In this document: positions 1-61,066 of the stretch, in pieces
How the letters are laid out: every line of letters begins with the position of its first letter
Numbering within the stretch: the first letter of the stretch is position 1
IMG/VR virus record: IMGVR_UViG_3300007734_000736
Span: 1 to 61,066 of that record
Length of the DNA: 61,066 nt
Origin: a virus
Reading direction: 5' to 3' (one strand)
Notes under the pieces: model-generated
Told to the model about the DNA's origin: nothing
What the model saw: only the letters and a program-made list of their open reading frames with translations
The model's database searches: none
Translations under genes and position numbers: made by a program

Positions 1-127
1 GCGCCGTGTCGGTGAGTGATTACAGATGGGTGTACTGAGATGTATCCAGTCTTGCCTTTGTGCAGCTCTTTTTGACGCCAGAAGTACGTGCCTCCGCCTT
101 CGTAGTCGTCATTCAAAGCAAGCACCA
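1..127. repeat. Terminal redundancy, left copy (circular closure)
   Basis: Bases 1-127 match 60940-61066 base for base. A length of 127 equals the usual largest k-mer of short-read assemblers, and the repeat lies inside a coding frame that continues across it. It is therefore best read as the overlap of a circular contig, not a biological direct terminal repeat. Confidence 0.95.
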
Positions 128-2276
128 TAGAGATGGATGCACTATCGTGGTGAAGAGCCAAATGACCTTGGATAGCCTCATCGTATTTGATGATGAAGTT
201 TTCGCTTGACATGTTGGTCCACTCCTGTCCTTCTAGTGCCCATTTTTTAATGGCCACTGGATATACATACTCCTCAAGAATGCGCTGGTAGTGCTCCTGA
301 AGTCCGAGCTCATTGATGAGCATGTCACAGGTCGGATAGAAATAGTGACGATTGCGAGTCCAACGACCAGAGTCTTCCGCTTGCTGGATGAGCAAGCTAC
401 AGAACTCTTCCGTAAAGAGCGGGAACACAAATACGTCATTGATGGGCTCATCAACGATAAGCTCCCATTCTTTCGTGCGCGCAGAGTAGGTCACAAAGCG
501 CTGAACAAACTCCTCGTAGGAATAGTTAGATAGATTCATTTCAATTGATTTTGGTTGGTTTTCGGTAGTGGATGTCTCCTTGGTGCTGCTCTGACCGAAC
601 ACCGCTGGAGTTAGCGCAAGGGCCTTGCTGTCTTTCCAAATCCATGAAAGGTCTTTCCGAGGGTGGTCGCAGAACGTAGCACTCAAGAACTCGTCAAGCG
701 GAATGATTGACTTGTCAAAGTTCTGCTCAAGCAGCAAGCGACAGCCTTCGTTTGTGAGCATGTATGCGTGGGTGGTGTACGTGTAGTCTGGCTCTACCAC
801 GCTGTCCGAAATCCTTCTCTTTGGCTGGCGCACAAAGCTGTGGCCCAAGTACAGGATGGTCCATGGCTCTTGGATGGCATCAACCTCAATTGAATTGAAT
901 TGGCGCAGTACGGTGAAGTCCTCCTCCAGGATTAGGATTCGCTTGTATCCATTCTCATAGGCGTCCTTCCATACGCGCCAGTGAGACACGGCACAGCCAA
1001 TCTCTCCCGGAAGAACATCTCGGTTCCACCAGCTGTTGTCGCTGGCAATCTTCCAGTCCTTCCACACGTTGATGCCCGGGGGCATTAGCGAACCAGTATA
1101 GCCGTTTGTGGCATCAAAGATTGTCATGCCTCCAGACTTCACCCCAGAGCCAATGAATCGCTCCAAAAGCTCAAAACGAATCTGAGAGTCTGGGTTGAGT
1201 GATATGATGTAGGTATGGTCTACATCCAAATACTTGTAGTCTCCAGAGGATGGAGTCTTAATGGCGGTGAAGCCACTAAGCTGCTCAAGCGGTATATCAA
1301 CTGTATTTACCATTGTTTTTGATTGAAGTTTGTAAAATAGTGATTTCCATTCATTTACGACGTTGCTCCACCATCTGGTCATAACGTATTCATTTACACA
1401 TTTCCAACAGCTGATGTCGTAAGCAAATTCGCTTAGCGTATCTGCAAGTCCAGCTATTGGGTTGACAATGGGCCTGACCCTGTGTGCAAGCATTTCAATT
1501 GCCGTTATGCAATAAGTCTCATTGTAGCTTGTCGGATAATACCAGTGTTCCATTTGACTGAGCAGCTTATAGAGCTGCTCCGTCTCAAGGGAACCGTGGT
1601 ACTTGATTGACTTGTTGCGCAATACTCTGTCAAGGAAGTTGACATTGAAGTAGTCAACTCCATACTCTGGAGTGGCAATGTGCAGTGTTCCCGTTATCTT
1701 GCCAGACTCAAAGTCATCAAGCACTTTGCCTAGGCCTCTCTCCGCGTGAGACGTATACACATAGGAGTCCTTAATTTTTTTGACTGGATTATGGATTTTG
1801 TGCTGGTCTATGCCGTTTCCAATCACATCAACTTTCTCGGCATCTATGTTGTATCTAGATAGAAAGTCGTTCTTGTGCCATCTGGTAAGGCAAACGATTG
1901 AATCTGAGAGGTCAAAAGCTTCTTGTATGTCATGGTCGGACATCCGCTCTCCATTTAGCCACATGTACGGCTCCTCATTGTGAAGCCAGAATATGCGATG
2001 CTTTACGCTTGAGCCGTCAAACAGTTTGACGTAGTGTAGGTATCCAACGCCGATGAGTATGTCTATCGAATCAGGAAGCAAATCGCGCCGCTCAAACGGC
2101 GCGTATTGCACCGAATCATAGTTGCCCTCTAAGACGTTACCAAACACAAACACATTGTGTCCGGCCACCGACAGCTGATAAGACAAGTTGACCACGCATT
2201 GCTCAGTGCCACCTGGAATCTTTGTGCTCGAGTTCCATGGCTTCGCAAAGTAGCCAACATGAAAGACAATGTTCAT
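1..2276 (-). CDS. GT4-GT25-lysyl hydroxylase fusion, N-terminal and main part (gene crosses the circular junction)
   Basis: An uninterrupted frame runs from ATG at 2276 to base 1 and continues at 60939 down to TAA at 60879-60881, giving about 778 residues. The start overlaps the preceding stop (ATGA). Residues 1-310 look like a GT-B, GT4-type glycosyltransferase: IPGGTE near 20-25 and an E-x7-E motif at E253/E261. Residues 355-562 look like glycosyltransferase family 25, the collagen galactosyltransferase/LPS family: YIISLNPDSQ at 356-365, GEIGCAVSHW at 424-433, LILEED at 448-453, PLDEFL at 526-531. A Ser/Thr-rich linker (563-580) leads to a procollagen-lysyl-hydroxylase (PLOD) domain with HHD at 709-711, YEGGGTYF at 725-732, and H757 and R767. 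The 10-residue His-Arg spacing is as in PLODs. Expected iron ligands are H709, D711 and H757, with R767 binding 2-oxoglutarate. Inferred job: hydroxylate lysines of the neighbouring collagen-like protein and add one or two sugars. Confidence 0.9.
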   Translation of the reverse strand, partial: MNIVFHVGYFAKPWNSSTKIPGGTEQCVVNLSYQLSVAGHNVFVFGNVLEGNYDSVQYAPFERRDLLPDSIDILIGVGYLHYVKLFDGSSVKHRIFWLHNEEPYMWLNGERMSDHDIQEAFDLSDSIVCLTRWHKNDFLSRYNIDAEKVDVIGNGIDQHKIHNPVKKIKDSYVYTSHAERGLGKVLDDFESGKITGTLHIATPEYGVDYFNVNFLDRVLRNKSIKYHGSLETEQLYKLLSQMEHWYYPTSYNETYCITAIEMLAHRVRPIVNPIAGLADTLSEFAYDISCWKCVNEYVMTRWWSNVVNEWKSLFYKLQSKTMVNTVDIPLEQLSGFTAIKTPSSGDYKYLDVDHTYIISLNPDSQIRFELLERFIGSGVKSGGMTIFDATNGYTGSLMPPGINVWKDWKIASDNSWWNRDVLPGEIGCAVSHWRVWKDAYENGYKRILILEEDFTVLRQFNSIEVDAIQEPWTILYLGHSFVRQPKRRISDSVVEPDYTYTTHAYMLTNEGCRLLLEQNFDKSIIPLDEFLSATFCDHPRKDLSWIWKDSKALALTPAVFGQSSTKETSTTENQPKSIEMNLSNYSYEEFVQRFVTYSARTKEWELIVDEPINDVFVFPLFTEEFCSLLIQQAEDSGRWTRNRHYFYPTCDMLINELGLQEHYQRILEEYVYPVAIKKWALEGQEWTNMSSENFIIKYDEAIQGHLALHHDSASISMVLALNDDYEGGGTYFWRQKELHKGKTGYISVHPSVITHRHG

Positions 2277-2833
2277 CGCTCGGTTGAGAAAAAGAACGTC
2301 TGGAAAAGCCTGCCGTTCTCCTTGCTGTTCCCAAAATAGTCAAGTGACGTATGGAATTGCTTACCCTGGTATAAAATCAAACGATTGTAGACGTTCCCAA
2401 CAGACGAAACTAACTCCCATTTGGTCATGTCTTGAGAGTCGTTATTCCACGTCCCCTTGCCTCCATTATCAGACCACATGAGACCAGTACTCTTATGTTT
2501 GAAGAATCCAGTACCGCTAGACAGTGGGGCGTTGGGAGTTAGGTATACCACGCCGGCCCACTTGGTGCCATGGTCAGCGTGAATCCAAGACCTATCTCTA
2601 GCTGTTGTTATCTGGAATGCGCCATTGTAGTCATCGGTTGGGAAGTAGTTAATCTTTCCCGCAAATGGCTCTACAATGTGCTGTAGCGTATCAAACACGC
2701 TTTGATTGAACTCTGGCTTAGTCCTTGCTCCTGGAAAATTCCCAGTAACAGGAAAATCCTGCGCTAGGGCAAACTCCCTAACCTCGTCTGGATTGTTGTA
2801 GAAACCATCTACAACGAACGCACTCATTACCAT
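2273..2833 (-). CDS. 2-oxoglutarate/Fe(II) oxygenase-like protein (DUF6445-like)
   Basis: This 186-residue protein has the double-stranded beta-helix signature of 2OG-Fe(II) oxygenases: a WIHADHG segment giving the HxD pair H85/D87, a distal H161 in QGKQFHTSLDYF, and R175 fourteen residues later as the probable co-substrate arginine. The overall pattern resembles the DUF6445 family, recalled and not searched. It lies directly after the collagen-like gene and overlaps the start of the GT4-GT25-lysyl hydroxylase gene by four bases, so the two are translationally coupled. Inferred role: a hydroxylase acting on the collagen-like fibre or on a sugar added to it; the target residue cannot be read from sequence. 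Translation could start at 2833 or at the in-frame ATG at 2827. Confidence 0.8.
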   Translation of the reverse strand: MVMSAFVVDGFYNNPDEVREFALAQDFPVTGNFPGARTKPEFNQSVFDTLQHIVEPFAGKINYFPTDDYNGAFQITTARDRSWIHADHGTKWAGVVYLTPNAPLSSGTGFFKHKSTGLMWSDNGGKGTWNNDSQDMTKWELVSSVGNVYNRLILYQGKQFHTSLDYFGNSKENGRLFQTFFFSTER

Positions 2834-2912
2834 TCAATTAAGTCTTATGACTCAAATGTACGTCACAGAGTTGAGGAAAACAAACGGGGCGCTTTTGGGC
2901 GCCCCGCATGTT

Positions 2913-5900
2913 TTAGGTCCAAATTGGGAAGTAGTAGTCTGTTCCTCCAACTCCAACCTTTCCCCATCCATACGTTGTTTTACCGGTATCGTCTGGGACC
3001 TCTGCGTTAAATCCACATGCCCCACATGTCACGCTAGACGCAGCGACGTTGACACTTCCAGTAGCTCCTTTCTGTCCTTTAGGACCTTGTGAGCCAGTGG
3101 GTCCAGTTGCGCCGGTTGGGCCAGTTGGGCCAGTTGGTCCAGCAGGTCCTTGAGCTCCAGTGTTACCTTTTGCTCCCTGGGGTCCAGTAGGACCAGCAGG
3201 TCCTTGAGGTCCCGTGGCTCCCTGAGCGCCAGTGTTGCCCTTCGCTCCCTGAGGTCCGGTTGGGCCAGTGGCTCCAGTATTTCCCTTCGCTCCCTGTGGT
3301 CCAGTTGGTCCGGTAGGTCCGGTAGGTCCAGTAGGACCAGTTGCTCCGGTGTTTCCTTTTGCTCCTTGAGGACCAGTGGGTCCGGCAGGTCCTTGAGGTC
3401 CAAGAGGGCCCGTAGGTCCGGTGGGACCCTGGGGTCCAGTAGCACCAGTTGCGCCTTTTTGGCCCTTTGTTCCTTGAGCTCCAGTTGGACCAGTGGGTCC
3501 GGCAGGTCCTTGAGGTCCAAGAGGGCCCGTAGGTCCGATGGGACCCTGGGGTCCAGTAGGTCCTTGCGCTCCAGTAACTCCCTTTTGCCCCTTTGCGCCT
3601 TGAGGTCCAGTAGCGCCAGTTGGGCCAGTGGGCCCAGTGGCTCCTTGAGGACCGGTTGGTCCCTGGGCTCCAGTTACACCTTTTTGACCCTTTGCTCCCT
3701 GGGGACCAGTAGGTCCAGTGGCTCCTTGAGGACCGGTTGGTCCCTGCGGTCCAGTCGGTCCTTGAGCTCCAGTAACTCCCTTCTGGCCTTTAGCGCCCTG
3801 GGGCCCAGTAGGCCCAGTAGGACCGGTAGGACCTTGGGCTCCTTGCGCTCCCTTTTGCCCCTGAGCACCCTGAGGACCAGTTGGTCCAGTTGCACCTTGG
3901 GGTCCAGCTGCTCCAGTGTTACCCTTGGCACCCTGGGGCCCGGTAGGTCCCGCGGGTCCTTGTGGCCCAAGAGGACCAGTAGGCCCAGTAGGACCTGTTG
4001 GCCCAGTTGCGCCTTGAGGTCCAGTTACACCTTTTTGACCTTTTGAGCCCTGAGCACCAGTGGCCCCCTGAGGTCCAGTAGGTCCGGTTGGTCCAGTAGC
4101 TCCAGTTGCACCTTTTTGACCCTTAGGTCCTTGGTCTCCAGTTGGACCCATGTCGCCCTTGTCTCCCTTTCCGCCTTTTTCTCCCTGAGCTCCAGTAGCA
4201 CCAGTGGCTCCCTGAGCACCAGTATTTCCCTTGGGGCCCTGGGGTCCAGTAGGACCAGTGGGCCCAGTGGCTCCTTGAGGACCAGTAGCACCAATCTCAC
4301 CCTTTTGTCCCTTCGGGCCCTGAGGTCCGGTTGGTCCAGTGGGACCAGTAGCGCCCTGCGGGCCAGTAGCACCTTGAGCACCGGTATCGCCCTTAGGACC
4401 CTGTGAGCCATCACGGCCTTTGTTTCCCTGGTCGCCCTTGGTTCCCTTGTCTCCAACTGGGCCAACAGGTCCGGTCGGACCAGTCGGGCCCGTAGCTCCT
4501 TGGGCACCAGTGTTTCCCTTCGCTCCCTGCGGACCAGTTGGTCCTTGGGCACCAGTATTACCCTTTGCTCCCTGCGGACCAGTTGGTCCCTGGGGACCAG
4601 TGGGCCCAATGTCTCCTTTGGGTCCCTGGGGACCAGTGGGTCCAACATCTCCCTTGGGGCCTTGGGCTCCAGTGGGTCCGGTAGGACCAGTAGGTCCAGT
4701 GGGTCCCTGGGCTCCAGTTACACCTTTTTGACCTTTTGCGCCCTGAGCACCAGTTGGGCCAGTGGGGCCAGTAGGACCGGTTGCGCCCTGTGGGCCTGTT
4801 GCGCCAGTGTCGCCTTTGGGCCCCTGTGAGCCATCACGGCCCTTTTGGCCTTGGTCTCCTTTAGTCCCCTTGTCTCCAGTAGGGCCGGTAGGACCAGTAG
4901 GACCGGTAGGCCCAGTAGCACCCTGGGGGCCAACATCACCTTTCGGACCTTGGGCACCAGTAGGACCAGTAGGTCCAGTGGGACCAGTGGCTCCCGTGGC
5001 ACCTTTTGTTCCCTGAGGGCCGGTAGGGCCGGTAGGTCCAGTGGGGCCCTGGGCTCCAGTATCACCCTTAGGCCCTTGAGAACCATCGCGGCCCTTATTG
5101 CCCTGGTCTCCCTTGTTCCCTTGAGGACCAGTTGGACCAGTAGGGCCGGTGGGTCCGGTAGCCCCTTGAGCACCAGTATCTCCTTTTGGACCAGTAGGAC
5201 CAGTAGGACCAGTGGGGCCAAGGTCTCCTTTAGGGCCCTGCGCTCCAGTTGGACCAGTGGGTCCAGTAGGACCAGTGGGGCCAAGGTCTCCTTTTGGTCC
5301 TTGGGCACCGGTATCGCCCTTAGGACCCTGAGAACCATCACGACCTTTTTGGCCCTGGTCTCCCTTGTTCCCTTGAGGACCAGTTGGACCAGTAGGACCA
5401 GTAGGCCCAGTGGCTCCTTGGGCTCCAGTATCTCCTTTTGGACCAGTAGGTCCGGTAGGACCAGTTGCTCCTTGGGGACCGGTATCGCCTTTGGGCCCCT
5501 GGGAGCCATCACGGCCTTTTTGACCTTGGTCGCCCTTATCGCCCTGTGGCCCGGTAGGTCCAGTGGGTCCTGTGGGGCCAGTAGGTCCAGTAGCACCTTG
5601 AGGACCGAGGTCTCCTTTAGGACCCCGGTCTCCTTTAGGGCCCTGGTCTCCTTTTGGTCCTTGAACTCCGTCTCGACCCTTTTCTCCTTTTAAGCCCTGT
5701 TCTCCTTGCGGTCCGGCAGGTCCAGTGGGGCCTGTGGGTCCTGTGGGCCCTTGAGGACCAAGGTCGCCCTTGGGGCCCTGGGCTCCAGTGTTGCCCTTGG
5801 GTCCAATGTCTCCTTGCGGTCCAGTTGCTCCAGTCGCACCTTTTTGACCCTGGTCTCCTTTGGGACCAACGTCTCCTTTGGGGCCTTGGTCTCCTTTAGG

Positions 5901-7142
5901 GCCTTGGTCTCCCTTAGGACCTTGGTCTCCTTTTGGTCCAGTGGCCCCATCACGACCTTTTTCTCCTTTTGAACCCTGGTAGCCCTTATCGCCCTGAGGT
6001 CCGGTTGGACCAGTGGGACCGGTAGGTCCGGTAGGTCCAGTTGCTCCAGTTACACCCTTTTGGCCCTGGTCTCCCTTGGGACCCTGGTCGCCTTTAGGAC
6101 CTTGAACCCCATCACGACCTTTTTCTCCTTTTGAGCCCTGGTCGCCCTTTTCTCCTTGAGGTCCGGCAGCGCCAGTATTTCCCTTTGCTCCGGTAGGACC
6201 CTGAGGACCAAGGCCTCCCTTAGGACCTTGAGGTCCAATGTCGCCCTTGGGACCAATGTCTCCTTGAGGGCCAGTTGCTCCTTTAGGACCAGTAGCTCCA
6301 TCACGACCTTTTTCACCCTTTCCTCCCTGGTCTCCCTTATCTCCCTGAGGCCCGGTGGGTCCAGTGGGACCAGTGGCACCTTGGGGGCCAAGGTCTCCTT
6401 TGGGACCTTGAGCCCCGGTGTCCCCCTTGGGACCTTGAATTCCAGTATCTCCTTTCTGTCCTTTAGGACCTTGTGAGCCAGTGGGTCCAGTTGCGCCGGT
6501 TGGGCCAGTTGGGCCAGTTGGGCCAGTTGGTCCAGCAGGCCCTTGAGCTCCAGTGTTACCTTTTGCTCCCTGTGGTCCCTGAGGCCCTGTTGGTCCGGTA
6601 GGTCCAGCGGGTCCTTGAGCTCCAGTGTTACCTTTTGCTCCCTTGGGTCCTTGAGGACCAGTTGGTCCAGTAGGTCCAAGCGGTCCCTCTCTTCCTTTCT
6701 CGCCCTTCGAGCCTTGAGGTCCAGTTGGTCCAGTTGGACCAGCGGGCCCTTGAGGTCCTGTGGCTCCCTGAGCTCCGGTATTACCCTTCGCTCCCTGAGG
6801 TCCGGTTGGGCCAGTGGCTCCAGTATTTCCCTTCGCTCCCTGTGCTCCAGTTGGTCCGGTAGGTCCGGTAGGTCCAGTAGGACCAGTTGCTCCGGTGTTT
6901 CCTTTTGCTCCTTGAGGACCAGTGGGTCCGGCAGGTCCTTGACTTCCAGTATCTCCCTTTGGGCCAGAAGGACCAGCAGGACCAGTAGCTCCGGGGGCAC
7001 CCTTGTCTCCTTTTGCAGAAGCACCTCCAGATGCACCCTTAGCTCCCTTGGTTCCTTTTGAACCAGGGAGCTGCTGAACTCCATTATTGGTAATCTCTAC
7101 AGAGGATGGGCCAGGAAGGTTGATGTCAATTTCTAATGCCAT
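2913..7142 (-). CDS. Collagen-like fibre protein (1409 residues)
   Basis: A 26-residue N-terminal segment is followed by an almost unbroken Gly-X-Y domain (about residues 27-1362) and a 47-residue C-terminal cap containing CGAC and ending YYFPIWT. One early interruption occurs near GGASAKG. Typical triplets are [21 protein letters not shown] and GQK. Lysine sits in the Y position and is followed by Gly, the context used by collagen lysyl hydroxylases. Proline is nearly always in X and threonine is very common in Y. I noticed only one Y-position Pro, a GAP near the N-terminus. Such proteins form trimeric triple helices in phage fibres. The upstream neighbour is a probable fibre-base protein; downstream follow three oxygenases and two glycosyltransferase domains. 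The long antisense and shifted frames here are composition artefacts. Confidence 0.95.
3065..3396. repeat. Duplicated block inside the collagen gene, copy near the 3' end
   Basis: Bases 3241-3396 match 6787-6942 over 156 bp with one mismatch that I can see. Bases 3065-3180 match 6449-6573 apart from one extra 9-bp triplet unit and small changes. This block codes for the C-terminal end of the Gly-X-Y domain and repeats the sequence coding for its N-terminal end. Confidence 0.85.
6449..6942. repeat. Duplicated block inside the collagen gene, copy near the 5' end
   Basis: Partner of the block at 3065-3396, about 3.4 kb away in the same orientation. Because the flanking collagen code is itself repetitive, the exact borders are soft. 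Confidence 0.85.
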
Positions 7143-7143
7143 A

Positions 7144-7527
7144 CTAGTTTACAGTAATATCTTGAGTAATAGTAAATTGACCATACATGTAGGTAGTAAC
7201 TACGTCTGGGTTCGGGGTTGGATTAGTAGCTTGAATTTCATAAACAAACGTACCAGCGTTTACCAACATATTAGGGGCACTAATAGTAACAGTAAGAACC
7301 CCAAGAGCTGTTCCGGTTACAGTGATGTTTGAACTTGCAATTACAATAGGACCAGTGTCATATTCACGGACTTCCATCTTCCAGGTGAACACGCTAAGGT
7401 CTACGGCCGTACCGTTTGCGTCCTTGATGGTGGCAATCAAAACAAATGTGTCTCCGCGCCAACAAACGATGTCTACGCGAGTGGCAATACTTACGACTGC
7501 TGTAGGGGTTGTATCACAACACGACAT
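7144..7527 (-). CDS. Fibre-base or baseplate-upper-like small protein
   Basis: This 127-residue, beta-rich protein ([16 protein letters not shown], then alternating strands ending [11 protein letters not shown]) resembles the N-terminal Ig/jelly-roll domain of BppU-type fibre adaptors. It lies two bases upstream of the collagen-like gene and shares its promoter (TAAATTTG at 7532-7539). The inference is that it anchors the collagen fibre to the virion. No enzymatic motif is visible. Confidence 0.6.
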
Positions 7528-7531
7528 AGCG

Positions 7532-7539
7532 CAAATTTA
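7532..7539 (-). promoter_or_regulatory. TAnnTTTG promoter element (TAAATTTG)
   Basis: A Bacteroidota-type -7 box lies five bases before the ATG of the fibre-base gene; it could drive the fibre-base, collagen and modification operon. It sits in the short gap after the portal gene start region is read through, and no clear -33 TTG is visible. Confidence 0.5.
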
Positions 7540-9975
7540 CTGGTTAGTTAGTGCATCCATTAGACCCGAGTTGAAGGCTGGAGCCTCTTCGCCTTTGCGC
7601 TGAGAAATCAATTTAGACTGAGCTTCAGCCTGTTTGTTGATTCGAGCGTCCTTTCTGTTTTCCTTCATCGCATCAGTCATTTCTTGTGTCTGACCACGAA
7701 CAGCTTGAGACTCGACCATACCCTGATTTTTTAGCTGTTGAAGCTCCATCTCATACGAGTATTGAAGCTGCATTAACTGGGCTTTTGCTTCGGTTTCAAG
7801 TTGGATTTTTTGAGCTTCAAGTTGTGCCTTCAACTGCTCTGCTTGCATCGTAGACTGAGCAGCAACTTGAGCAGCCTGTGCATTAGCTTCAGCTTGGAAC
7901 TGAGCCTGCTGCTGAGCTTCATCCATGCGCTGCTTCATGCGCTTTTTGCGGCGAACAACCAGAAGGCGCTCCGCTTGCTCTGGGTCGCGGAGCTGACGGA
8001 TAGCAATAGCGTCCTCAAGGTCAATCTCTTTTTGAGATAGGGCCATGTTGATGTTTTGCTCCAGGTAGATTTTGGAGCGGTCGTCCATTTCTCCCATTAC
8101 GATGACGCCAAAGTTGTACATCGAGAGGTTATCAAACGAACTCAGGATGGCCATGTTGGTCTCCCCAATGGCGTTGGTGTAAACCTTGTAGATGATGCTC
8201 TTGGGCGGGATTACCTGCAAGCAGCGCACGATGTCCTCACAGACCTTCTTGTAAAGGACCTGTGCGGCGTGAGTGATGTCGTAGGTTGCGTTGTTTGAAG
8301 CGGCAATGGCCTGCTCGCGAACGCCCACAAGCGCATCTGCCTTTGGGGTGCTTGCGTCAACTACCTCATTGATTCCCGTTGCGTCGCGAATCATGCGCAG
8401 GTAGTGGTTGTACAATGCGACCAACTCTTGGATGTTGCGGATGGCATTGCCAATCTCCCGCACCGGCGGGTTTTGGAACCCGCCTTCGGGATTCTTAGAG
8501 CGGTAGTAGAATACACCAGTTTGCTCGTAGATGTCCTGAATCTCCAGAGGCTGCAGTTCTCCACCCCGTCCGAGCTGTACGTTCTCCAGGCCTTCGATAT
8601 CGATGATGAGTCCATCAGGCTTAGCCTTGGCAATGGACTGCTGAATCTTCAAGTGAGTGATTTGAAGCATGTCTCCAAATCCAATCACACTTGACACCAT
8701 TGACTTCGGAATCATACCGCGAAGGTTCGTGGCTACGCAAGAGTATGAAAGGCGAGCGCGAGCAATATCATGTACGTTCTTCGGGATGTTCTTCTGAACT
8801 CCGTAGTTGTACATCAGCTCAGTACCAATTACGTACACGCCACCGTAGACGGTAGCGTTCTTCATGTACACAGCCTCGCGGTCGAATACTGATTGCTGCG
8901 GGGCGTTGTAGCTGTGGCCTTTGTAGTAGAACCCGATGTTGCCAAACTTGGACTCTTTCTTTTCGAACACGATGTCGTCTACCGACATGAATTCAAACTC
9001 CATGATTTGGACCTTGTACTCGTCGTATCCGTAGCGGTAGCGGTTGCTGATGGTCTCGTAGTTGTAGCCTTGGGTAGCGTAGCGCAGCGGGTCATTTCCG
9101 TAACGGTTCATTACCGTTTGGGCAATCTGTTGGTACTGCTCTTCGGTAAACTGATTTCCTGCAAGACGCTTGAGCTCCATGATGGTTACCGTACGGAAGT
9201 GACCAGCGTAGGTCAGGTCCGCCATGTTGGGGTCGTCCGTGTAGTTGTGGATGAAGTATGCCGGGTCTACGTACTGCTCACGAATGCCGTAGTTAGGGTC
9301 ATTGGTGCGCTTGGTAATGGCGATGCCGCACGTAACGAGGTCCTCAACGCAGCGGCGGTAGATGCCGTCGTCGAAGTCGTTCCACGTAAGAGTCATTTCC
9401 GTGGCCAGCTGTGCAGCAATCTCTGCATCAGTTTTCACGTTCGTGTCCAGGAAGATTTCCGTTTCCTCGGGAGTGTCCGGAAGCGAGTCCGGGTCAACGC
9501 GCACGTTCAAGCCAAGAGCCTTTGCCTCTTGGAGCATCTCCTTGTTTTCGATGTGAAGGATGGTGGCGTTCTTCTTTTTGTCTTTCTCGCTGCGTGACAA
9601 CGGGTCAACAGCCTGTACTTGTGGGTAGGGCTTGCGAGACAGAATCTTGTTTACGACGATGCGAACAAACTTGGGAATGATGGGAACTGGAGTGTAGTCC
9701 AGCGTAAGCATCGTTCCGTCTCCGTTGTTGGCATCCAGTGAGCTCAAGATTTGCCGATAGATGGACGTGTCTTGAGTTCCTTGAGCATAGTCTCGGTTGT
9801 TCTGCATTTCATTGAACCGACGACCATACAATGAATTGTTGTAGTCAACCCCAATCCACTGAGCATACATGGCCTTAGCATACTGAAGGCCATAGGATTG
9901 CGACATCTTTTCTTCCGTACTCGCTAGCGGGTCCGGGAACGTAGATTGACCTTTTGCTGTATAATCTCTTTGCAT
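7537..9975 (-). CDS. Portal protein
   Basis: This 812-residue protein lies immediately downstream of the terminase, the usual portal position. It has the mixed alpha/beta body of large portals (LDYTPVPIIPKFVRIVVNKI near residue 95) and an extended Gln/Ala-rich coiled-coil C-terminus (about 690-770) that would form the barrel. Length and position fit crAss-like and related podoviral portals. Its role is the dodecameric ring through which DNA enters and leaves the capsid. It has its own TATATTTG promoter element at 9997-10004. Confidence 0.85.
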   Translation of the reverse strand: MQRDYTAKGQSTFPDPLASTEEKMSQSYGLQYAKAMYAQWIGVDYNNSLYGRRFNEMQNNRDYAQGTQDTSIYRQILSSLDANNGDGTMLTLDYTPVPIIPKFVRIVVNKILSRKPYPQVQAVDPLSRSEKDKKKNATILHIENKEMLQEAKALGLNVRVDPDSLPDTPEETEIFLDTNVKTDAEIAAQLATEMTLTWNDFDDGIYRRCVEDLVTCGIAITKRTNDPNYGIREQYVDPAYFIHNYTDDPNMADLTYAGHFRTVTIMELKRLAGNQFTEEQYQQIAQTVMNRYGNDPLRYATQGYNYETISNRYRYGYDEYKVQIMEFEFMSVDDIVFEKKESKFGNIGFYYKGHSYNAPQQSVFDREAVYMKNATVYGGVYVIGTELMYNYGVQKNIPKNVHDIARARLSYSCVATNLRGMIPKSMVSSVIGFGDMLQITHLKIQQSIAKAKPDGLIIDIEGLENVQLGRGGELQPLEIQDIYEQTGVFYYRSKNPEGGFQNPPVREIGNAIRNIQELVALYNHYLRMIRDATGINEVVDASTPKADALVGVREQAIAASNNATYDITHAAQVLYKKVCEDIVRCLQVIPPKSIIYKVYTNAIGETNMAILSSFDNLSMYNFGVIVMGEMDDRSKIYLEQNINMALSQKEIDLEDAIAIRQLRDPEQAERLLVVRRKKRMKQRMDEAQQQAQFQAEANAQAAQVAAQSTMQAEQLKAQLEAQKIQLETEAKAQLMQLQYSYEMELQQLKNQGMVESQAVRGQTQEMTDAMKENRKDARINKQAEAQSKLISQRKGEEAPAFNSGLMDALTNQ

Positions 9976-10014: not shown

Positions 10015-12117
10015 TCAGCGTAAGATGACCCGACCAGGGCGGAAGAACTTCTTTACATCAAAGTTGGTTTTCTCTTTCTTGACCGTCGCTCCTTGCGCTG
10101 CTAAAAGCGCAAGGCCGCTGGAGATGGAAAGGTCAAATGCAGTACGGTCGTCAACCTTGAAGTTAATCCAATCTTCAAGGGTTCGGTCAAAATACATCTT
10201 CCCAAATTCCATGGTCTCTTCGTTCACTCCAACGTGAGAATGGATGAACGCTTCAATGGCTTGAGCATGTGCCTGAATGATGTCCTGCGAGTTCGACGGA
10301 ATACCCTTTGTTTTGCTTCCTCCTCCATATCCAGAACCAAGGTGTTCAGGCCTGTTCATCAGGTAGTTATCGTATCCGCGCTGCTCAAAATATCGTGCGA
10401 TTCCATACTTGTTGTTCTCAATCAGAATTGAGTATCCATAGAACTTCGCCGCCATTAGAACGTCCTCATAGAATATCTTGGCCAGCGGAGGACGTGAAGC
10501 ATACTCTGCAACAAACATGTTTGCCGGATACTGCAGGTTGAACTTGTTGTACAGATGGCACGCGCCCTTAGAGCCGCGGCCATCTACGGTAGCATCAATG
10601 TCGTAGGAGTCAACTCCACCCACACCGAGCCATTCGTTCTGTGGACCCTGTTTGTTTCTGAGCTCATACGGGGGCATCCAAGCCACTCTCCAGCGTCCAT
10701 TTGCATCCGGCTTGAAGTAGACCTCAGTGTCTTGCTTTCCGTCCTTCCAGACAAAGTTTCCGACAAGGATTGGGTTTGGGTACAAGTCCTGGTTGTACTG
10801 AATCTGTTCGTATATCTTCTGGACGTTGAACACCGAGGCCTTGGCGCTGTCACGAAATGCCTCTGCCTCGCTGAAAGGGAACTGGCGAATCACCTCGTTG
10901 AGTTCGTAGCTGTCGTTCACTAGGGCCTTTCTCTCGTTCTTCAGGAATGTCTTGGCTCCGATGGTGACCATATTCCCGTCGATACCAAGGATTGGCACCT
11001 CTGGGTCTTCAACTATAGGATGACCGTAGACATCGAAGAATCCCTCTAGCGACTCATAGGCAGGCATGAACAGCCTGTAGAGACCGCTCTTGGTGCGTCC
11101 GTTTTCGTTTCGTTCGTTTGGGTTGCTGCTGTACACCAGGTCCCGGAACTGTCGGCCCCCTTTGTCAAGGGGGTTTACCGTGCTTCCTACGATAGCCTTT
11201 CCTACGATGTTTCTACCAACCAACAGACAGGTGCGATGAATTCGCCAAGACTCGCGAATGTCGCTTGGCTTCTCCCACTTGCCAGCCTCATCCATGTACA
11301 GGATATGAAGTTTCTCACCGTCATAAGCGTTGTTTGTTGTGTTCTTCCAGTTGATTACCGTGTTGAGGGCGTCTCCTCGGGTGGCCGTCTTGACCTTCTT
11401 GGTGATTCGCTTTGATGGCTCGCGAAATGCAAGCTCCATGCGCGGGTTGGTGGTACCGTCCTGGATGGGCTTGAAGAAGAATGGCAGCGACTTGTAGATT
11501 GGCATTACCTTCTTCATGAAGATGTTCTCCTGCGCATCACCACCCGTCTTGGACATGATACCCAACAGCTTGTCTTTTACCTGAGAACCCTCGTTAACCA
11601 GCACTGAAGAGGTCATCTGCGTATATCCGGAACGACGGCACTTGACGTACACCTGGCCAAGGCATCTGTCGTCCACAGCACAGGCTTCCATGTGCAGGAA
11701 CAGCGTTCTCTGGAAGCTCAAGAACTCAGGATAGCCGATATCAATCTTGGCCCACTGAAGAAAGAAGTAGTGATTTCCAGTTATGTACGTTGGAACACCG
11801 TTGTTGTAGAACCACACGCCTTTTCTCCTGCGCTCAAACTCCTGAGATATGTAGCCCATGTAGCGCTTCTTGAACTCCTCTGGCATGGCGGCCCACTCGT
11901 CCATAGTCTTAATGCGCTGGATGTCGTCCGGTAGCTCAAGTCGAGTCCATCGTTGCTCGTGCTGAGGAAGGTCGTGAAAAAGGATTTTCTTCTTGTCTGG
12001 CTGCTTTGGAAGCTGGATTGGCAAATCGCCAATCACCTCGACATCCCCCATGGTTCCGTCGTGGCAAATACTGACAACCTGCCCAGTATAATCCTTATGT
12101 TCAACAAGACCAGCCAT
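10015..12117 (-). CDS. terL: Terminase large subunit
   Basis: This 700-residue DNA-packaging ATPase/nuclease has a variant Walker A segment CRRSGYTQ (160-167), a Walker B LYMDEAGK (273-280), a coupling-like VGSTVNP (310-316) and an RNase-H-type nuclease start GVDSYDID (501-508). The N-terminal ITGNHYFFLQWAKIDIGYP region resembles terminases of crAss-like phages. It cuts concatemeric DNA and pumps it through the portal encoded next. The start is fixed by a TAATG overlap with a 39-residue upstream ORF. Confidence 0.93.
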   Translation of the reverse strand: MAGLVEHKDYTGQVVSICHDGTMGDVEVIGDLPIQLPKQPDKKKILFHDLPQHEQRWTRLELPDDIQRIKTMDEWAAMPEEFKKRYMGYISQEFERRRKGVWFYNNGVPTYITGNHYFFLQWAKIDIGYPEFLSFQRTLFLHMEACAVDDRCLGQVYVKCRRSGYTQMTSSVLVNEGSQVKDKLLGIMSKTGGDAQENIFMKKVMPIYKSLPFFFKPIQDGTTNPRMELAFREPSKRITKKVKTATRGDALNTVINWKNTTNNAYDGEKLHILYMDEAGKWEKPSDIRESWRIHRTCLLVGRNIVGKAIVGSTVNPLDKGGRQFRDLVYSSNPNERNENGRTKSGLYRLFMPAYESLEGFFDVYGHPIVEDPEVPILGIDGNMVTIGAKTFLKNERKALVNDSYELNEVIRQFPFSEAEAFRDSAKASVFNVQKIYEQIQYNQDLYPNPILVGNFVWKDGKQDTEVYFKPDANGRWRVAWMPPYELRNKQGPQNEWLGVGGVDSYDIDATVDGRGSKGACHLYNKFNLQYPANMFVAEYASRPPLAKIFYEDVLMAAKFYGYSILIENNKYGIARYFEQRGYDNYLMNRPEHLGSGYGGGSKTKGIPSNSQDIIQAHAQAIEAFIHSHVGVNEETMEFGKMYFDRTLEDWINFKVDDRTAFDLSISSGLALLAAQGATVKKEKTNFDVKKFFRPGRVILR

Positions 12118-13649: not shown

Positions 13650-14615
13650 TTACGCGGGCAATGATATTTGGCCCAAGTTAGTAACAGAAACGCTAGTATT
13701 CTTCGTGAGTATTACTGCAGAAGTGGAACTACACCTTAGCGCTATGTCATACGGAACACTGGAGTCTGCGTAGTAATAATAGCTAAGATTCACCGTATGC
13801 TTCCCTGCCTTTGTACTTTCCAAGTCTTCAATAAGAACTACACTGCTCGCTCCATCGTTGATGTACAGCTGGGTGGTAATGTCAGGAGTTCCGGCAGAAA
13901 TTGAATACTCAACACATGCTTCTATCAGGTACATCGATTCAGTGTTAAGCCGAATGTTGTCACGGATTCCAACTGCGCTAACAAGAGAAATACTAGCGCT
14001 GGCGCCACCAAAAGCTACCGATGAAGTGGCCGGGTCAACAGCTCCAGTAGCCGATGCACTGTAGAGCTCAGCAAACGGAATCATAACTGCAGCCGTGCCT
14101 ACTGAGGTGGTAGCCTGTGGCTTAGCCACAAACATATTGGGCAATACGGTTGCACCGATGTTTACCACGTAATCAGAAAGGTTGACCAGATTGATGTACT
14201 TGTAGGCGCTTGCTGATTCATCCCAAATGAGAAACTTGTCTGAGTTGGAAGCTGTTGCCTGCGTAAGTTGCGTAAGTGAGCTAGCGGGTAGGACTCCAAT
14301 TGTGCTGCCCGTGGCGCTCAACGGAGAGTTGGCCGTGACCGAGGCGGTGCCAATCGGATTGGTGCTGAGGTTTCGTTTGACAAATACGCCCGTTGAGCTA
14401 AGCATAAGCGCCTGCACATCGGTTGTGGATGTGGCCATTGTGCCAGTGCACTTGAAATCACCCGTTGACTCTACCGTGTCTGTGGAGAGCTTCAATGCAG
14501 TTGCATTGCCCTGGCCATCCTGCACGACCTGCTCAGACGCAGACACCGTAGAGGTAGCCAGCTTCAAAAGAAGGCCGAAGGTGTCTTTAATTTTGGTTCC
14601 GCTAAGACTTCCCAT
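13650..14615 (-). CDS. Tail-fibre-like protein with C-terminal jelly-roll
   Basis: The protein has 321 residues and is Ser/Thr/Ala-rich. The N-terminal GSLSGTKIKDTFGLLLKL and repeated short phrases resemble fibre shaft starts. The last 150 residues (SMYLIEACVEYSISAGTP, then alternating beta segments) look like a C1q/TNF-type trimeric head common in receptor-binding proteins. It has its own TATCTTTG promoter element. Likely role: receptor binding or virion decoration; the receptor is unknown. Confidence 0.65.
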   Translation of the reverse strand: MGSLSGTKIKDTFGLLLKLATSTVSASEQVVQDGQGNATALKLSTDTVESTGDFKCTGTMATSTTDVQALMLSSTGVFVKRNLSTNPIGTASVTANSPLSATGSTIGVLPASSLTQLTQATASNSDKFLIWDESASAYKYINLVNLSDYVVNIGATVLPNMFVAKPQATTSVGTAAVMIPFAELYSASATGAVDPATSSVAFGGASASISLVSAVGIRDNIRLNTESMYLIEACVEYSISAGTPDITTQLYINDGASSVVLIEDLESTKAGKHTVNLSYYYYADSSVPYDIALRCSSTSAVILTKNTSVSVTNLGQISLPA

Positions 14616-17910: not shown

Positions 17911-18801
17911 TTACTTGTTCTTGGGGCTTACGCCGGTGAAGTACATCATGGCTTGACGCAGAGCGTCCATCTGCTTCTTAACGGCTGGACTCATGTCCAC
18001 TGCGTTAGAGATGTAGCTGTTGTTGTCTTTGGTCGGGTTCAAGGGGTTCGGTGCTCCCGGCTTCTTGAGCTTGCCGCCTTTTGCGTACATCATGTCCAGC
18101 TTGCCGCCGCCCATCATGTATCCCATCTTGTTGCGCACTTCGGTGGGGAGTTTGGCGAGTCCTTTCTTTCCTGCGGGGACCGGCTTGAGCGAACCTCCTG
18201 CAGCATATTTCTTGGGTTTCATAATTTCTACTTCTTGTAGTTGAACAGTTTTGGGGGTTGTGGTTTCATCTACACCTATTCCAATGGCACCGGTTCGTCC
18301 GGTGTTGGCTGGGTCTAGTTTCTTGTCAATCTTTTTGGCTAGGGTCTTTACCTTATCCATGGGTGTCACCTTGCGGTACTGGCGTGCAATCTCGTCGCGC
18401 ACCATTTGCTGTTGGCGCTGGGTGAGCTTGCCGATGTCTTCAAGCACGCTCTTGTCCTTCTCGGCGTAGCGGCGTGCCATGTCGGCAATCTCTTTGCTGT
18501 TGACTGGCCTAACGGCTCCACGAAGTCCCATCTCGCGTGACGCGGTGTTGATTGACTTGATGCCTTTGATTAGGGTTTCTTGAAACGAGTCGATTGCTTT
18601 TCGTTCTGCTGCTGCGCGGGCCATGTATCGTCCCAGGGCTCCTAGGCCTGCTTTGGCGCCCATGGCTCCCATTTCAGGATACACCTCTTCAATGGACTCC
18701 TTACGGCGGTTTGCTGCCATTTTAGGGGCCTGAGCACGGAGGTTGCGCTCCATGGCTGGAGTCATTCCTGCTGGGCGCTTGGGGGGTTTGCTGTTTCTCA
18801 T
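17911..18801 (-). CDS. Basic helical virion-associated protein with YxxGG motifs (296 residues)
   Basis: A helical, charged N-terminal two-thirds (RQQQMVRDEIARQYRKV), then KPKKYAAGGSLKP, MGYMMGGGKLD and MYAKGGKLKKPG, repeating the K-Y-x-x-G-G theme of its neighbours. The promoter TAACTTTG lies at 18818-18825. Probably an internal or ejected virion protein; not recognised at family level. Confidence 0.65.
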   Translation of the reverse strand: MRNSKPPKRPAGMTPAMERNLRAQAPKMAANRRKESIEEVYPEMGAMGAKAGLGALGRYMARAAAERKAIDSFQETLIKGIKSINTASREMGLRGAVRPVNSKEIADMARRYAEKDKSVLEDIGKLTQRQQQMVRDEIARQYRKVTPMDKVKTLAKKIDKKLDPANTGRTGAIGIGVDETTTPKTVQLQEVEIMKPKKYAAGGSLKPVPAGKKGLAKLPTEVRNKMGYMMGGGKLDMMYAKGGKLKKPGAPNPLNPTKDNNSYISNAVDMSPAVKKQMDALRQAMMYFTGVSPKNK

Positions 18802-59551: not shown

Positions 59552-59941
59552 TCACGAGCGAAACTTCTTTGTCTTCTTTGCTATTGATTTTGGCTGAGGC
59601 ACAAACTGCTTTCCTTGCCTGCTACCCTCGCGTTTAGCGCGAGTGGTAGCTGCGTATTCTGCTGGTGTTAAGGACTTTATGGCTTTTTCCGGCAGGTAGC
59701 GCTCTCCAGTTTCCTTGGACGGCTTACCACTTTTTGTACGCCAGTTCTGCTGGGTCCACTTTGACAGAGATGTCGAACGCTTGGGGCCCGCGTAAGACCC
59801 TCCGGCTTTCTTGTATAACGAAACGGCTAATTGGGCTTTCCTCGCACTCCACTGACCAGGGTTTCCACCCTTGCTTCCAGCCTTCACTCTGGCAACTATT
59901 TGTTTCCAAAGCGCGGGGTTTTTCTTTTGAGCTGTTGCCAT
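59552..59941 (-). CDS. Small basic protein, DUF5872-like (129 residues)
   Basis: SLSKWTQQNWRTKSGKPS, then GERYLPEKAIKSLTPAEYAA is the DUF5872 pattern seen in phages and giant viruses. Probably virion-associated. Overlaps the previous stop by one base. Confidence 0.75.
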   Translation of the reverse strand: MATAQKKNPALWKQIVARVKAGSKGGNPGQWSARKAQLAVSLYKKAGGSYAGPKRSTSLSKWTQQNWRTKSGKPSKETGERYLPEKAIKSLTPAEYAATTRAKREGSRQGKQFVPQPKSIAKKTKKFRS

Positions 59942-60279: not shown

Positions 60280-60879
60280 CTACTTATAGCTATTCCCCCC
60301 CGCCCAAAGGACCAAGGACTCACGCACTCCGCTAGTTACAGGAGTAACTCTGTGTAACAAATATGATGGAAAAATTATCACCGTGCCCTGGGCTTTTGAA
60401 GCTGTTGCCTCGCCAGAACCTGAGCGAATCTCTAGTTCTCCGCCCTGGTAATCATTTGGGTCGCTAAGCTGAACCACGAGAGAAATCTTACGAAAGGCAA
60501 GCTCATTAGGCCCAATGTCCATGTGCCAATTGTAGAAGCCTTTCTCAGTTGCCTCGTACTGGGTGTACTGAATTGAATCTTGAATGGACTGCAGGTCGAA
60601 CTGCCACATGTTATCATTGGCGATAGTCATGTAGTTCATCAGTCGGTCGTACAGCCAACCGTGGGGGTTGGCTCGGGGAATCCACTTGATGTTTGACTTA
60701 CGCACTTGATTGAGCGCTTCGTCTTCAAAATTGGCAGCTACTTGCCCACGAGAGATGGGAATTACGCTTGCCTCCTTCTTGATTTTGGCAATCTCCTCCT
60801 TGTTGAAAGCAGAGTCAAAGTAGTACCAGCCAGTCATATCGCGGCCTTTGCCGCGGTCAAATGTTGGATTGAGGTTCAT
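60280..60879 (-). CDS. 2-oxoglutarate/Fe(II) oxygenase (prolyl-4-hydroxylase/PiuC-like)
   Basis: 199 residues. WHMDIG gives H119/D121, YQGGELEI lies on the next strand, and H176 with R186 complete the metal and 2-oxoglutarate sites. This is the PKHD/P4H-type layout. The ATG overlaps the TAA of the GT4-GT25-lysyl hydroxylase gene (TAATG), so it is the last coupled enzyme of the collagen operon. Likely substrates are the collagen-like protein or its glycans; proline is less likely, since Y-position Pro is nearly absent there. Confidence 0.85.
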   Translation of the reverse strand: MNLNPTFDRGKGRDMTGWYYFDSAFNKEEIAKIKKEASVIPISRGQVAANFEDEALNQVRKSNIKWIPRANPHGWLYDRLMNYMTIANDNMWQFDLQSIQDSIQYTQYEATEKGFYNWHMDIGPNELAFRKISLVVQLSDPNDYQGGELEIRSGSGEATASKAQGTVIIFPSYLLHRVTPVTSGVRESLVLWAGGNSYK

Positions 60880-61066
60880 TATTTATTTCGGTTACAGAAT
60901 GAAACAAGTACAAAGCGCTTACCCTTGGTTACTGCACGTGCGCCGTGTCGGTGAGTGATTACAGATGGGTGTACTGAGATGTATCCAGTCTTGCCTTTGT
61001 GCAGCTCTTTTTGACGCCAGAAGTACGTGCCTCCGCCTTCGTAGTCGTCATTCAAAGCAAGCACCA
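60879..61066 (-). CDS. GT4-GT25-lysyl hydroxylase fusion, C-terminal end (continues from base 1)
   Basis: The last 61 codons and stop of the gene described at 1-2276. It carries the second half of the lysyl-hydroxylase domain: YEGGGTYFW, the metal ligand H757 in THRHG, and R767 in KGKRFVLVSF. Bases 60940-61066 duplicate 1-127; the unique part is 60879-60939. Read alone it would be mistaken for a small 2OG-oxygenase fragment. Confidence 0.9.
   Translation of the reverse strand, partial: VLALNDDYEGGGTYFWRQKELHKGKTGYISVHPSVITHRHGARAVTKGKRFVLVSFCNRNK
60940..61066. repeat. Terminal redundancy, right copy (circular closure)
   Basis: Identical to bases 1-127; see the left copy. Confidence 0.95.

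Follow-up and report, generated by a model that had tools for sequence, protein, structure and literature searches.

A podovirus locus that probably pairs a very long collagen tail fibre with enzymes for its hydroxylysine glycosylation

We analysed a window of 61,066 nucleotides, the full IMG/VR virus record IMGVR_UViG_3300007734_000736, and find that one locus in it probably encodes a very long collagen tail fibre together with enzymes predicted to perform hydroxylysine glycosylation of that fibre. The phage is a Bacteroidota-type podovirus. A direct terminal repeat of 127 bp (copies at 1..127 and 60940-61066; unit 60,939 bp) shows the record to be a complete, circularly permuted genome, so that one gene, encoding a fusion of GT4, GT25, and lysyl hydroxylase (LH) domains, spans the record ends. 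Read along the minus strand, the genes are p127, collagen, the DUF6445 gene, the GT4-GT25-LH fusion, and a PKHD-type 2OG oxygenase (OG2), in the order that the initial annotation gave and that ORF positions and family matches bear out. The collagen gene starts one base past the p127 stop codon, an ATGA overlap links the DUF6445 gene to the fusion, and a TAATG overlap links the fusion stop to the OG2 start codon. The ATGA/TAATG joins claimed for the three enzyme genes are thus present, the continuity from 2276 to 60879 existing only once the record ends are joined, and the enzyme genes are closely packed into a cassette. The same gene order recurs in relatives and, given that recurrence, the arrangement is, judged from sequence, far beyond chance.

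The collagen-like fibre protein (1409 aa, 2913..7142, minus strand), delimited by its ORF and triplet count, comprises a ~25-aa N-terminal anchor, ~441 Gly-X-Y triplets, and a ~47-aa C-terminal cap, and would measure ~380 nm if helical. Position X is mostly P, A, or D and position Y mostly T, Q, or K, with almost no Y-proline. The lysines of the window protein (~99 in Y, 0 in X) therefore lie in the X-Lys-Gly context, the target context of collagen lysyl hydroxylases. Among close relatives the N-terminus is 74-89% kept and the C-terminal cap is variable. The neighbouring p127 (127 aa, 7144..7527, minus strand), assigned to phrog_1084, is 82-89% identical in collagen-bearing close relatives versus ~36% in collagen-free ones despite a 91% identical portal, which indicates that it tracks fibre type; we infer that p127 is a candidate adaptor joining portal and fibre. 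Collagen-free relatives carry beta-type tail-fibre-like genes at the same site, and a Peptidase_S74 chaperone domain occurs in four collagen ORFs of relatives, with none in the window collagen protein itself. Site and homologue S74 domains together mark the collagen protein as a putative phage tail fibre. A BLAST search of a collagen segment against phages came back empty, an outcome probably due to low-complexity masking of the segment.

The fusion gene occupies 1..2276 (minus strand) and continues at 60939-60879, its last 61 bases (60879..60939, minus strand, across the circular junction) encoding the end of the LH domain and the stop. By profiles, alignment, and Foldseek, the 778-aa product divides into GT4 (~aa 1-340, 2276-1257), GT25 (~aa 341-585, 1256-522), and LH (~aa 600-778). 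The LH profile matched mimivirus L230 (6ax6, 1.7e-28) and human PLOD3 (5.8e-26) in the PDB, and no other chain at E<=0.01 beyond two spurious antibody chains (2e-4 and 3e-3). Residues H109, D111, H157, and R167 (numbering of alignment A2) are invariant and align with the iron and 2OG segment of L230, and the catalytic residues remain invariant across sequences down to ~46% identity. Profile, Fe(II)/2OG residues, and substrate-lysine context all point to a PLOD/L230-type domain. The GT25 profile matched the catalytic half of COLGALT1 (1.3e-28) far better than bacterial GT25 enzymes (9.8e-6), and the EDD metal core of COLGALT1, Glu435-Asp437 (PMC13382579), lines up with an invariant E-x-D that reads E-E-D in the window and E-D-D in some relatives; profile and metal motif thus suggest a COLGALT-type domain, a candidate for UDP-Gal transfer to hydroxylysine. 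With the predicted fold of the fusion, whose LH part is of low confidence, Foldseek matched COLGALT1 and LH3, the GT25 hits being 9evj and 9u7h. The GT4 half matches PF13439 and, by Foldseek, structures of MshA, PimA, and a UDP-glucose alpha-1,2-glucosyltransferase, and is predicted by fold and profile to be a retaining GT-B glycosyltransferase.

These domains suggest an order of steps on lysine. In the infected cell, before or during chain trimerisation, LH would turn Y-lysines into hydroxylysine, GT25 would add a beta-linked hexose to it, and GT4, as a retaining GT-B enzyme, may follow with another hexose in alpha linkage to yield Hex-Hex-Hyl, in a way similar to human LH3 and COLGALT1, which make Glc-alpha1,2-Gal-Hyl. 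The phage LH could instead hydroxylate lysines with glycosylation absent or different, GT4 acting on Y-threonine or GT25 adding glucose, and no animal-type disaccharide being made; we give this version a little less than an even chance. It is a sub-variant of the reading of the locus as a fibre with its hydroxylysine-glycosylating enzymes, and is compatible with it. Y-threonine is abundant in the window collagen (181 of 441 triplets), LH has varying partners (GT4-GT25-LH, GT25-LH, and GT4-LH), and the product of mimivirus L230 is glucosyl-hydroxylysine (PMC4691112; PMC9546862), all of which would fit a different product, whereas the closeness of GT25 to the galactosyltransferase COLGALT1 and the retaining-type fold of GT4, akin to alpha-1,2-glucosyltransferases, favour the disaccharide.

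The DUF6445 protein (186 aa, 2273..2833, minus strand) is likely a 2OG-Fe(II) oxygenase by its HxD...H...R residues, of which H85, D87, H161, and R175 are invariant in 10 relatives. The PHROG family that it matches, phrog_1644 (E 1.5e-34), is labelled 'minor coat protein', and taken at its word the label would make the 2273-2833 product a minor coat protein and no oxygenase. Such a reading would fit a protein that showed no similarity to OG2 in a profile comparison, had no match in a PDB search, and lacks a confident predicted fold (mean pLDDT 36, from a 10-row alignment). We nevertheless consider it unlikely, and the label probably wrong: the invariant HxD, H, and R are ordered and spaced as in 2OG oxygenases, the gene overlaps the start of the fusion gene, and cyanophage S-SSM7 likewise has a 'minor coat protein' gene beside one for a 2OG oxygenase. 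OG2 (199 aa, 60280..60879, minus strand, with the TAATG start overlap) matched 3dkq (3e-12) and PiuC (~1e-9) by profile and has the HxD...H...R residues of a 2OG-Fe(II) oxygenase, which together suggest a PKHD/PiuC-type hydroxylase. X-proline averages 22% in collagens with OG2 versus 1% in those without (p = 0.00017; 25 representatives, 18 comparisons, kinship ignored), OG2 is present with 26 of 27 X-Pro-rich collagens, and DUF6445 goes with Y-glutamine among relatives' collagens, kinship again ignored; both associations are leads only. The two oxygenases probably hydroxylate other fibre residues, in the case of OG2 perhaps X-position proline.

Surveyed by sequence, the enzymes come and go with collagen across phages. 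Among portal relatives, LH was found in 19 of 29 collagen-bearing records versus 0 of 14 collagen-free ones (three of the 14 being 53-66 kb), and DUF6445 follows the same split. Relatives with the enzymes and no collagen-like gene had been named at the outset as the pattern that would speak against the pathway; it is absent from these 14 records, and across LH clusters it is confined to a few cases. Collagen lies in the flank of 23 of the 30 LH clusters, 3 are truncated, and 4 lack it, giving 23 of the 27 with enough flank to judge. Of the four without it, two are viral clusters and two are bacterial loci. In one viral cluster a member contig carries a Lys-rich collagen farther away, the second viral cluster is represented by contigs of 14-18 kb only, and both bacterial genomes hold collagen-like genes elsewhere. 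No collagen was present in 80 PhoH control loci (808 kb). On the portal tree the collagen state switches at least 4-7 times, and LH follows collagen in 3 of 3 scorable independent pairs (p = 0.25); all directions agree in the independent-pair tests, with numbers too small for significance, and with so few phylogenetic pairs the linkage within the podovirus group could be co-inheritance. GT25-LH proteins without GT4 are also encoded no more than 1.6 kb from a collagen fibre gene, among unrelated neighbours, in Roseobacter phage CRP-6 and in cyanophages S-CAM9, S-PRM1, and S-8S55, and in a set of 17 phages collagen was present in 4 of 4 fusion-bearing members versus 2 of 13 others. Lysine in LH-linked collagens falls 9636 times in Y versus 24 times in X, and it is absent from two cyanophage collagens in genomes without the fusion, these two phages being the only control collagens without LH. 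That the enzymes come and go with collagen suggests that collagen lysine glycosylation occurs in bacteriophages too.

The same data bear on whether the fibre is the substrate at all. The enzymes might act on host LPS or capsule, or on another virion protein, and adjoin the fibre as both affect adsorption. Phage glycosyltransferases are usually taken as O-antigen or DNA modifiers (PMC7029224), the Pfam name of GT25 (PF01755) is 'LPS biosynthesis', and LH loci L163 and L164 belong to a sugar-metabolism region where the nearest 10 kb hold no collagen. This remains improbable in our view, since LH and GT25 resemble collagen-specific enzymes much more closely than they do bacterial GT25, no LPS role suggests itself for a lysyl hydroxylase domain, the enzymes are missing where a beta-type fibre replaces collagen, and the Y-Lys bias of LH-linked collagens speaks against it; mimivirus L230 and R655, too, were first mislabelled as LPS enzymes (PMC9546862). 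It is no more probable that unmodified Y-lysines stabilise the helix via Lys-Gly-Asp/Glu salt bridges beside a hitchhiking cassette that does not act on the fibre, for although 36 of the 97 Y-lysines with a next triplet precede Gly-Asp, a salt-bridge-favourable setting without modification, and only three independent pairs were scorable in the podovirus group, the enzyme-collagen pairing recurs in another architecture in the Roseobacter phage and cyanomyoviruses, the catalytic residues are invariant despite divergence, and the two fusion-less cyanophage collagens have zero lysine.

The pathway to a modified fibre proposed by the initial annotation is strongly supported by comparative evidence, its hydroxylation and glycosylation steps being predicted. 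The modified fibre would attach to the p127 adaptor and so replace an ordinary beta-structured tail fibre. The most likely benefit would be to stabilise and solubilise the helix without hydroxyproline, receptor binding and shielding being the other candidates. A fuller scheme is tentative, and we think it rather less likely to hold than to fail: a single polypeptide would unite LH, a galactosyltransferase like COLGALT, and, as the retaining glucosyltransferase, a GT4 domain whose fold is unrelated, covering the whole lysine branch and placing Glc-Gal-Hyl-like disaccharides on ~100 lysines per chain, OG2 would act on X-prolines, and fibre and enzymes would move as one module, trading places with beta-type fibres that lack enzymes, and would turn up again among Bacteroidota, Roseobacter, and cyanobacterial phages. 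The parts given to GT4, the DUF6445 protein, and OG2 in the pathway are candidate roles.

Collagen lysine hydroxylation and glycosylation are regarded as animal traits, with mimivirus as the viral exception. As here, mimivirus encodes collagens, LH, and glycosyltransferase (L230, a bifunctional collagen lysyl hydroxylase and glucosyltransferase whose LH is homologous to that of the phage; R699; R655), but it is an amoebal giant virus with several separate collagen and enzyme genes and without a GT4-GT25-LH fusion, and no description of its collagens as tail fibres of the phage type exists. To our knowledge, BclA of Bacillus spores is glycosylated by other enzymes, none of them relatives of PLOD or COLGALT. 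Both domains of the human LH3/PLOD3-COLGALT1/GLT25D1 complex (PDB 8ZGC) match the phage by profile and share the X-Lys-Gly target; the human complex consists of separate proteins whereas the phage has a single polypeptide, and for the retaining glucosyltransferase humans use the GT domain of PLOD3 itself, the candidate in the phage being GT4 (GT-B). The E. coli prophage proteins EPclA and EPclB form trimeric fibres with GXY shafts and have proline in X, not Y (PMC3368898), but unlike this phage they come without a known hydroxylase or glycosyltransferase, and EPclA made recombinantly carries no glycosylation. A review from 2022 on prokaryotic collagens, which covers BclA as a glycosylated prokaryotic collagen-like protein, names mimivirus as the sole virus for lysine modification and gives phage collagens as ~18 residues (PMC8968730); the phages here encode matching enzymes beside collagen fibres of hundreds of triplets. 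The family phrog_61, labelled only '2OG-Fe(II) oxygenase' (689 positions), has a profile that matches OG2 as well as the GT25-like section of the fusion and lacks GT4, and cyanophage GT25-LH proteins have the same layout; we found no description in the literature of its link to adjoining collagen fibres, and no paper on a hydroxylysine-glycosylated collagen fibre in bacteriophages. If active, the phage proteins would offer compact enzymes for making hydroxylysine-glycosylated collagen in bacterial systems and a natural test of the modification's effect on a triple helix without hydroxyproline, and would raise a new question on the origin of the PLOD and COLGALT domains; the module swap among close relatives makes the question testable.

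The collagen gene and the enzyme genes probably do not form the single 'collagen operon' first annotated. A strong terminator-like hairpin with a 9-bp stem and a T-rich tail (2884..2907, minus strand), conserved in relatives, lies 3' of the collagen stop within a 97-nt region of local fold z = -5.7, and a motif scan placed a Bacteroidota-type promoter-like motif, TTTG-N20-TACATTTG, ahead of the enzyme genes (2853..2884, minus strand), the single match in the window where 0.79 is expected by chance. With these conserved elements between them, one operon for collagen and enzymes is not supported. Hairpin and TTTG-N20-TAnnTTTG are kept at equal spacing in six close relatives, and two more distant relatives have a different hairpin plus the TACATTTG box. 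A sigma-70 promoter scan gave fewer sites than shuffles did and was uninformative. The enzyme genes probably have their own transcription start past the collagen terminator.

At 61,066 bases, the window is an entire virus record made up of a 60,939-bp unit and a 127-bp direct terminal repeat, with copies at 1-127 and 60940-61066. Because of this repeat, the record ends form one continuous sequence; the assembly is complete and circularly permuted, and its cut falls inside the GT4-GT25-LH fusion gene described below. The minus strand encodes the terminase (10015-12117), the portal (7537-9975), a 127-aa protein (p127, 7144-7527), a 1409-aa collagen-like protein (2913-7142), a 186-aa DUF6445 protein (2273-2833), a fusion of GT4, GT25 and PLOD/L230-type lysyl hydroxylase (LH) domains that starts at 2276 and spans 778 aa once the ends are joined, and a 199-aa 2OG oxygenase (OG2, 60280-60879). 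The order from p127 to OG2 described in the initial annotation is borne out by these ORFs, and so, after joining the ends, are the overlaps among the three enzyme genes: ATGA couples DUF6445 to the fusion and TAATG the fusion to OG2. The portal's relatives are Flavobacterium and Cellulophaga phages, a kinship that points to a putative Bacteroidota host.

A profile built from ten LH domains matched the LH domain of mimivirus L230 (1.7e-28) and human PLOD3 (5.8e-26) in the PDB, with no further matches up to E 0.01 except two clearly spurious antibody chains (2e-4 and 3e-3). Across the LH domains, the H, D, H and R residues for Fe and 2OG binding do not vary. The GT25 profile matched human COLGALT1 (1.3e-28), mimivirus R655 (3.8e-7) and bacterial GT25 enzymes (about 1e-5), and its invariant E-x-D aligned with the EDD metal core of COLGALT1 (PMC13382579). 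AlphaFold modelled the GT4 and GT25 parts well and the LH part poorly; in Foldseek, GT4 matched retaining GT-B enzymes, including the alpha-1,2-glucosyltransferase tll1591, and GT25 matched COLGALT1. Human collagen receives beta-Gal from COLGALT1 with inversion and alpha-1,2-Glc from PLOD3 with retention (PMC10342707). The phage fusion pairs GT25 with a retaining-type GT4. The phage domain set thus has the right stereochemical types for the human collagen disaccharide and, by analogy, may make a Gal/Glc disaccharide of this type. OG2 is a PKHD/PiuC-type oxygenase by profile, with HxD...H...R residues present. DUF6445 carries an oxygenase residue pattern; neither a PDB search nor profile comparison with OG2 supported an oxygenase fold. 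Its PHROG label 'minor coat protein' (phrog_1644) appears to mislabel a family of oxygenase-like proteins. A gene so labelled in cyanophage S-SSM7 (NC_015287 29441-30208) adjoins a 2OG oxygenase gene.

Among 80 portal relatives fetched, the usual layout is p127-collagen-DUF6445-GT4-GT25-LH-OG2 in the same order, or collagen and enzymes both absent; some collagen-bearing relatives lack DUF6445 or OG2. Whole-record searches of 43 relatives found collagen in 29, with LH in 19 of these and in none of the 14 collagen-free records, which include records of 66, 53.9 and 53.1 kb; DUF6445 was likewise found in 19/29 versus 0/14. Ten records have collagen but no LH; they stop within collagen or in enzyme genes ahead of LH. 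When only records with adequate downstream sequence were counted, LH was present in 14 and absent from 0 collagen-bearing records versus 0 and 6 collagen-free ones (Fisher p 2.6e-5, the rows being related). On the portal tree the collagen state shifts 7 times, with at least 4 of these shifts on branches that have good support, and LH tracks collagen in 3/3 scorable independent pairs, a number that cannot give significance.

A search that started from LH gave 80 loci, of which 66 are flanked by a collagen ORF. No collagen ORF was present in 80 control loci built around PhoH in marine phages (808 kb), a rough background from one phage group with shorter loci. Grouping at 90% identity, which also took in a few loci from bacteria and from the phage collection, left 30 clusters: 23 with collagen, 3 ending too early upstream and 4 without local collagen. 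The claim that substrate and modifying enzymes are encoded together was upheld among portal relatives (0/14 collagen-free records with the enzyme). In one of the 4 clusters without local collagen, a Lys-rich collagen ORF lies at a member's contig end (G046); another has been seen only on contigs of 14-18 kb; the remaining two are bacterial GT4-LH genes (Granulosicoccaceae and Chromatiales) with collagen-like genes elsewhere in both genomes. The Chromatiales bacterium, which comes from Bugula, has an open frame with GNAGNAG repeats (G060, C180:25450-26499), read as collagen-like and devoid of lysine, that is probably not a substrate of its GT4-LH protein. The LH partner domain differs between proteins: GT4-LH proteins without GT25 occur at loci L165-L178, L259 and L260, two of them bacterial chromosomal. 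On L163, a 61.9-kb contig of a large phage, a GT25-LH protein lies amid replication and sugar-metabolism genes, and no collagen was found on that contig. GT25-LH and a collagen fibre gene are at most 1.6 kb apart in Roseobacter phage CRP-6 and in the cyanophages S-CAM9, S-PRM1 and S-8S55. Across 17 phages searched whole, a chosen and partly related set, collagen exceeded the cut-off in 4/4 with the fusion versus 2/13 without (p 0.006). We conclude that a collagen tail fibre with predicted collagen-type lysine-modifying enzymes is a real, recurrent phage module. Mimivirus L230, which modifies mimivirus collagen, is the known precedent (PMC4691112, PMC9546862). For bacteriophages, the open-access literature searched yielded no account of collagen fibres paired with PLOD- or COLGALT-like enzymes, so the novelty of this pairing is provisional.

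In the window collagen, long runs of triplets (about 441 in all) have mainly Pro, Ala or Asp in X and chiefly Thr (181), Gln (112) and Lys (99) in Y; lysine never occupies X, and proline occupies Y once. At 0.286 nm per residue, its 1336-residue shaft would be ~380 nm long. LH-linked collagens together hold 9636 Y-lysines versus 24 X-lysines (21,912 triplets, near-copies counted), and cyanophages S-SCSM2R and P-SSM2, with collagen without GT25-LH, have no lysine in X or Y across 199 triplets. Y-lysine level is unrelated to the presence of accessory oxygenases. X-proline is high mainly with an OG2 gene (mean 22% with, 1% without), and OG2 accompanies 26/27 X-Pro collagens; this pattern suggests that OG2 may be an X-proline hydroxylase, although kinship of the sequences may explain it. 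Individual LH-linked loci illustrate the spread in X-proline (L102, L108 and L144 vs L148, L147 and L145). DUF6445 presence accompanies Y-glutamine.

A single operon of collagen and enzymes, as initially proposed, is not borne out. Directly 3' of the collagen stop, a GC-rich hairpin of 9 bp runs into a T-rich tail (z -5.7, 97-nt region) and is followed by TTTG-N20-TACATTTG, which fits the Bacteroidota promoter consensus. This motif is the single match in the window, with 0.79 expected by chance, and alone is not significant. Close relatives (L010, L017, L024, L030, L092, L093) retain the hairpin and also the motif, its spacing unchanged; in the more distant L048 and L052, a TACATTTG box accompanies a hairpin unlike that of the window. 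Given this retention, collagen and enzyme genes are best seen as adjacent, predicted transcription units.

Peptidase_S74, a chaperone of trimeric phage fibres, ends the collagen ORFs of S-CAM9 and of relatives L067 (at 17412), L088 (14391) and L108 (7886); the fibre tip is exchanged among relatives and the lysine-rich shaft kept. In L096 the collagen fibre with a Peptidase_S74 end stops at 18391, and the L143 collagen end has a weak BclA_C match. E. coli prophage collagens have been read as side tail fibres (PMC3368898). In collagen-free relatives with portals 88-91% identical, the site is occupied by a protein of ~495 aa that matches tail-fibre and virion PHROGs and by long GIGTTSP-repeat proteins. 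The identity of p127 is 82-89% to its counterparts in collagen-bearing relatives and falls to about 36% beside other fibres, where the portal is still 91% identical; because its identity tracks fibre type under a near-constant portal, p127 may be an adaptor matched to the fibre. Two genes past OG2, a 129-aa protein (59552-59941) resembles DUF5872 at a score under the family cut-off; relative L049 has a similar protein amid its virion genes (14058-14351).
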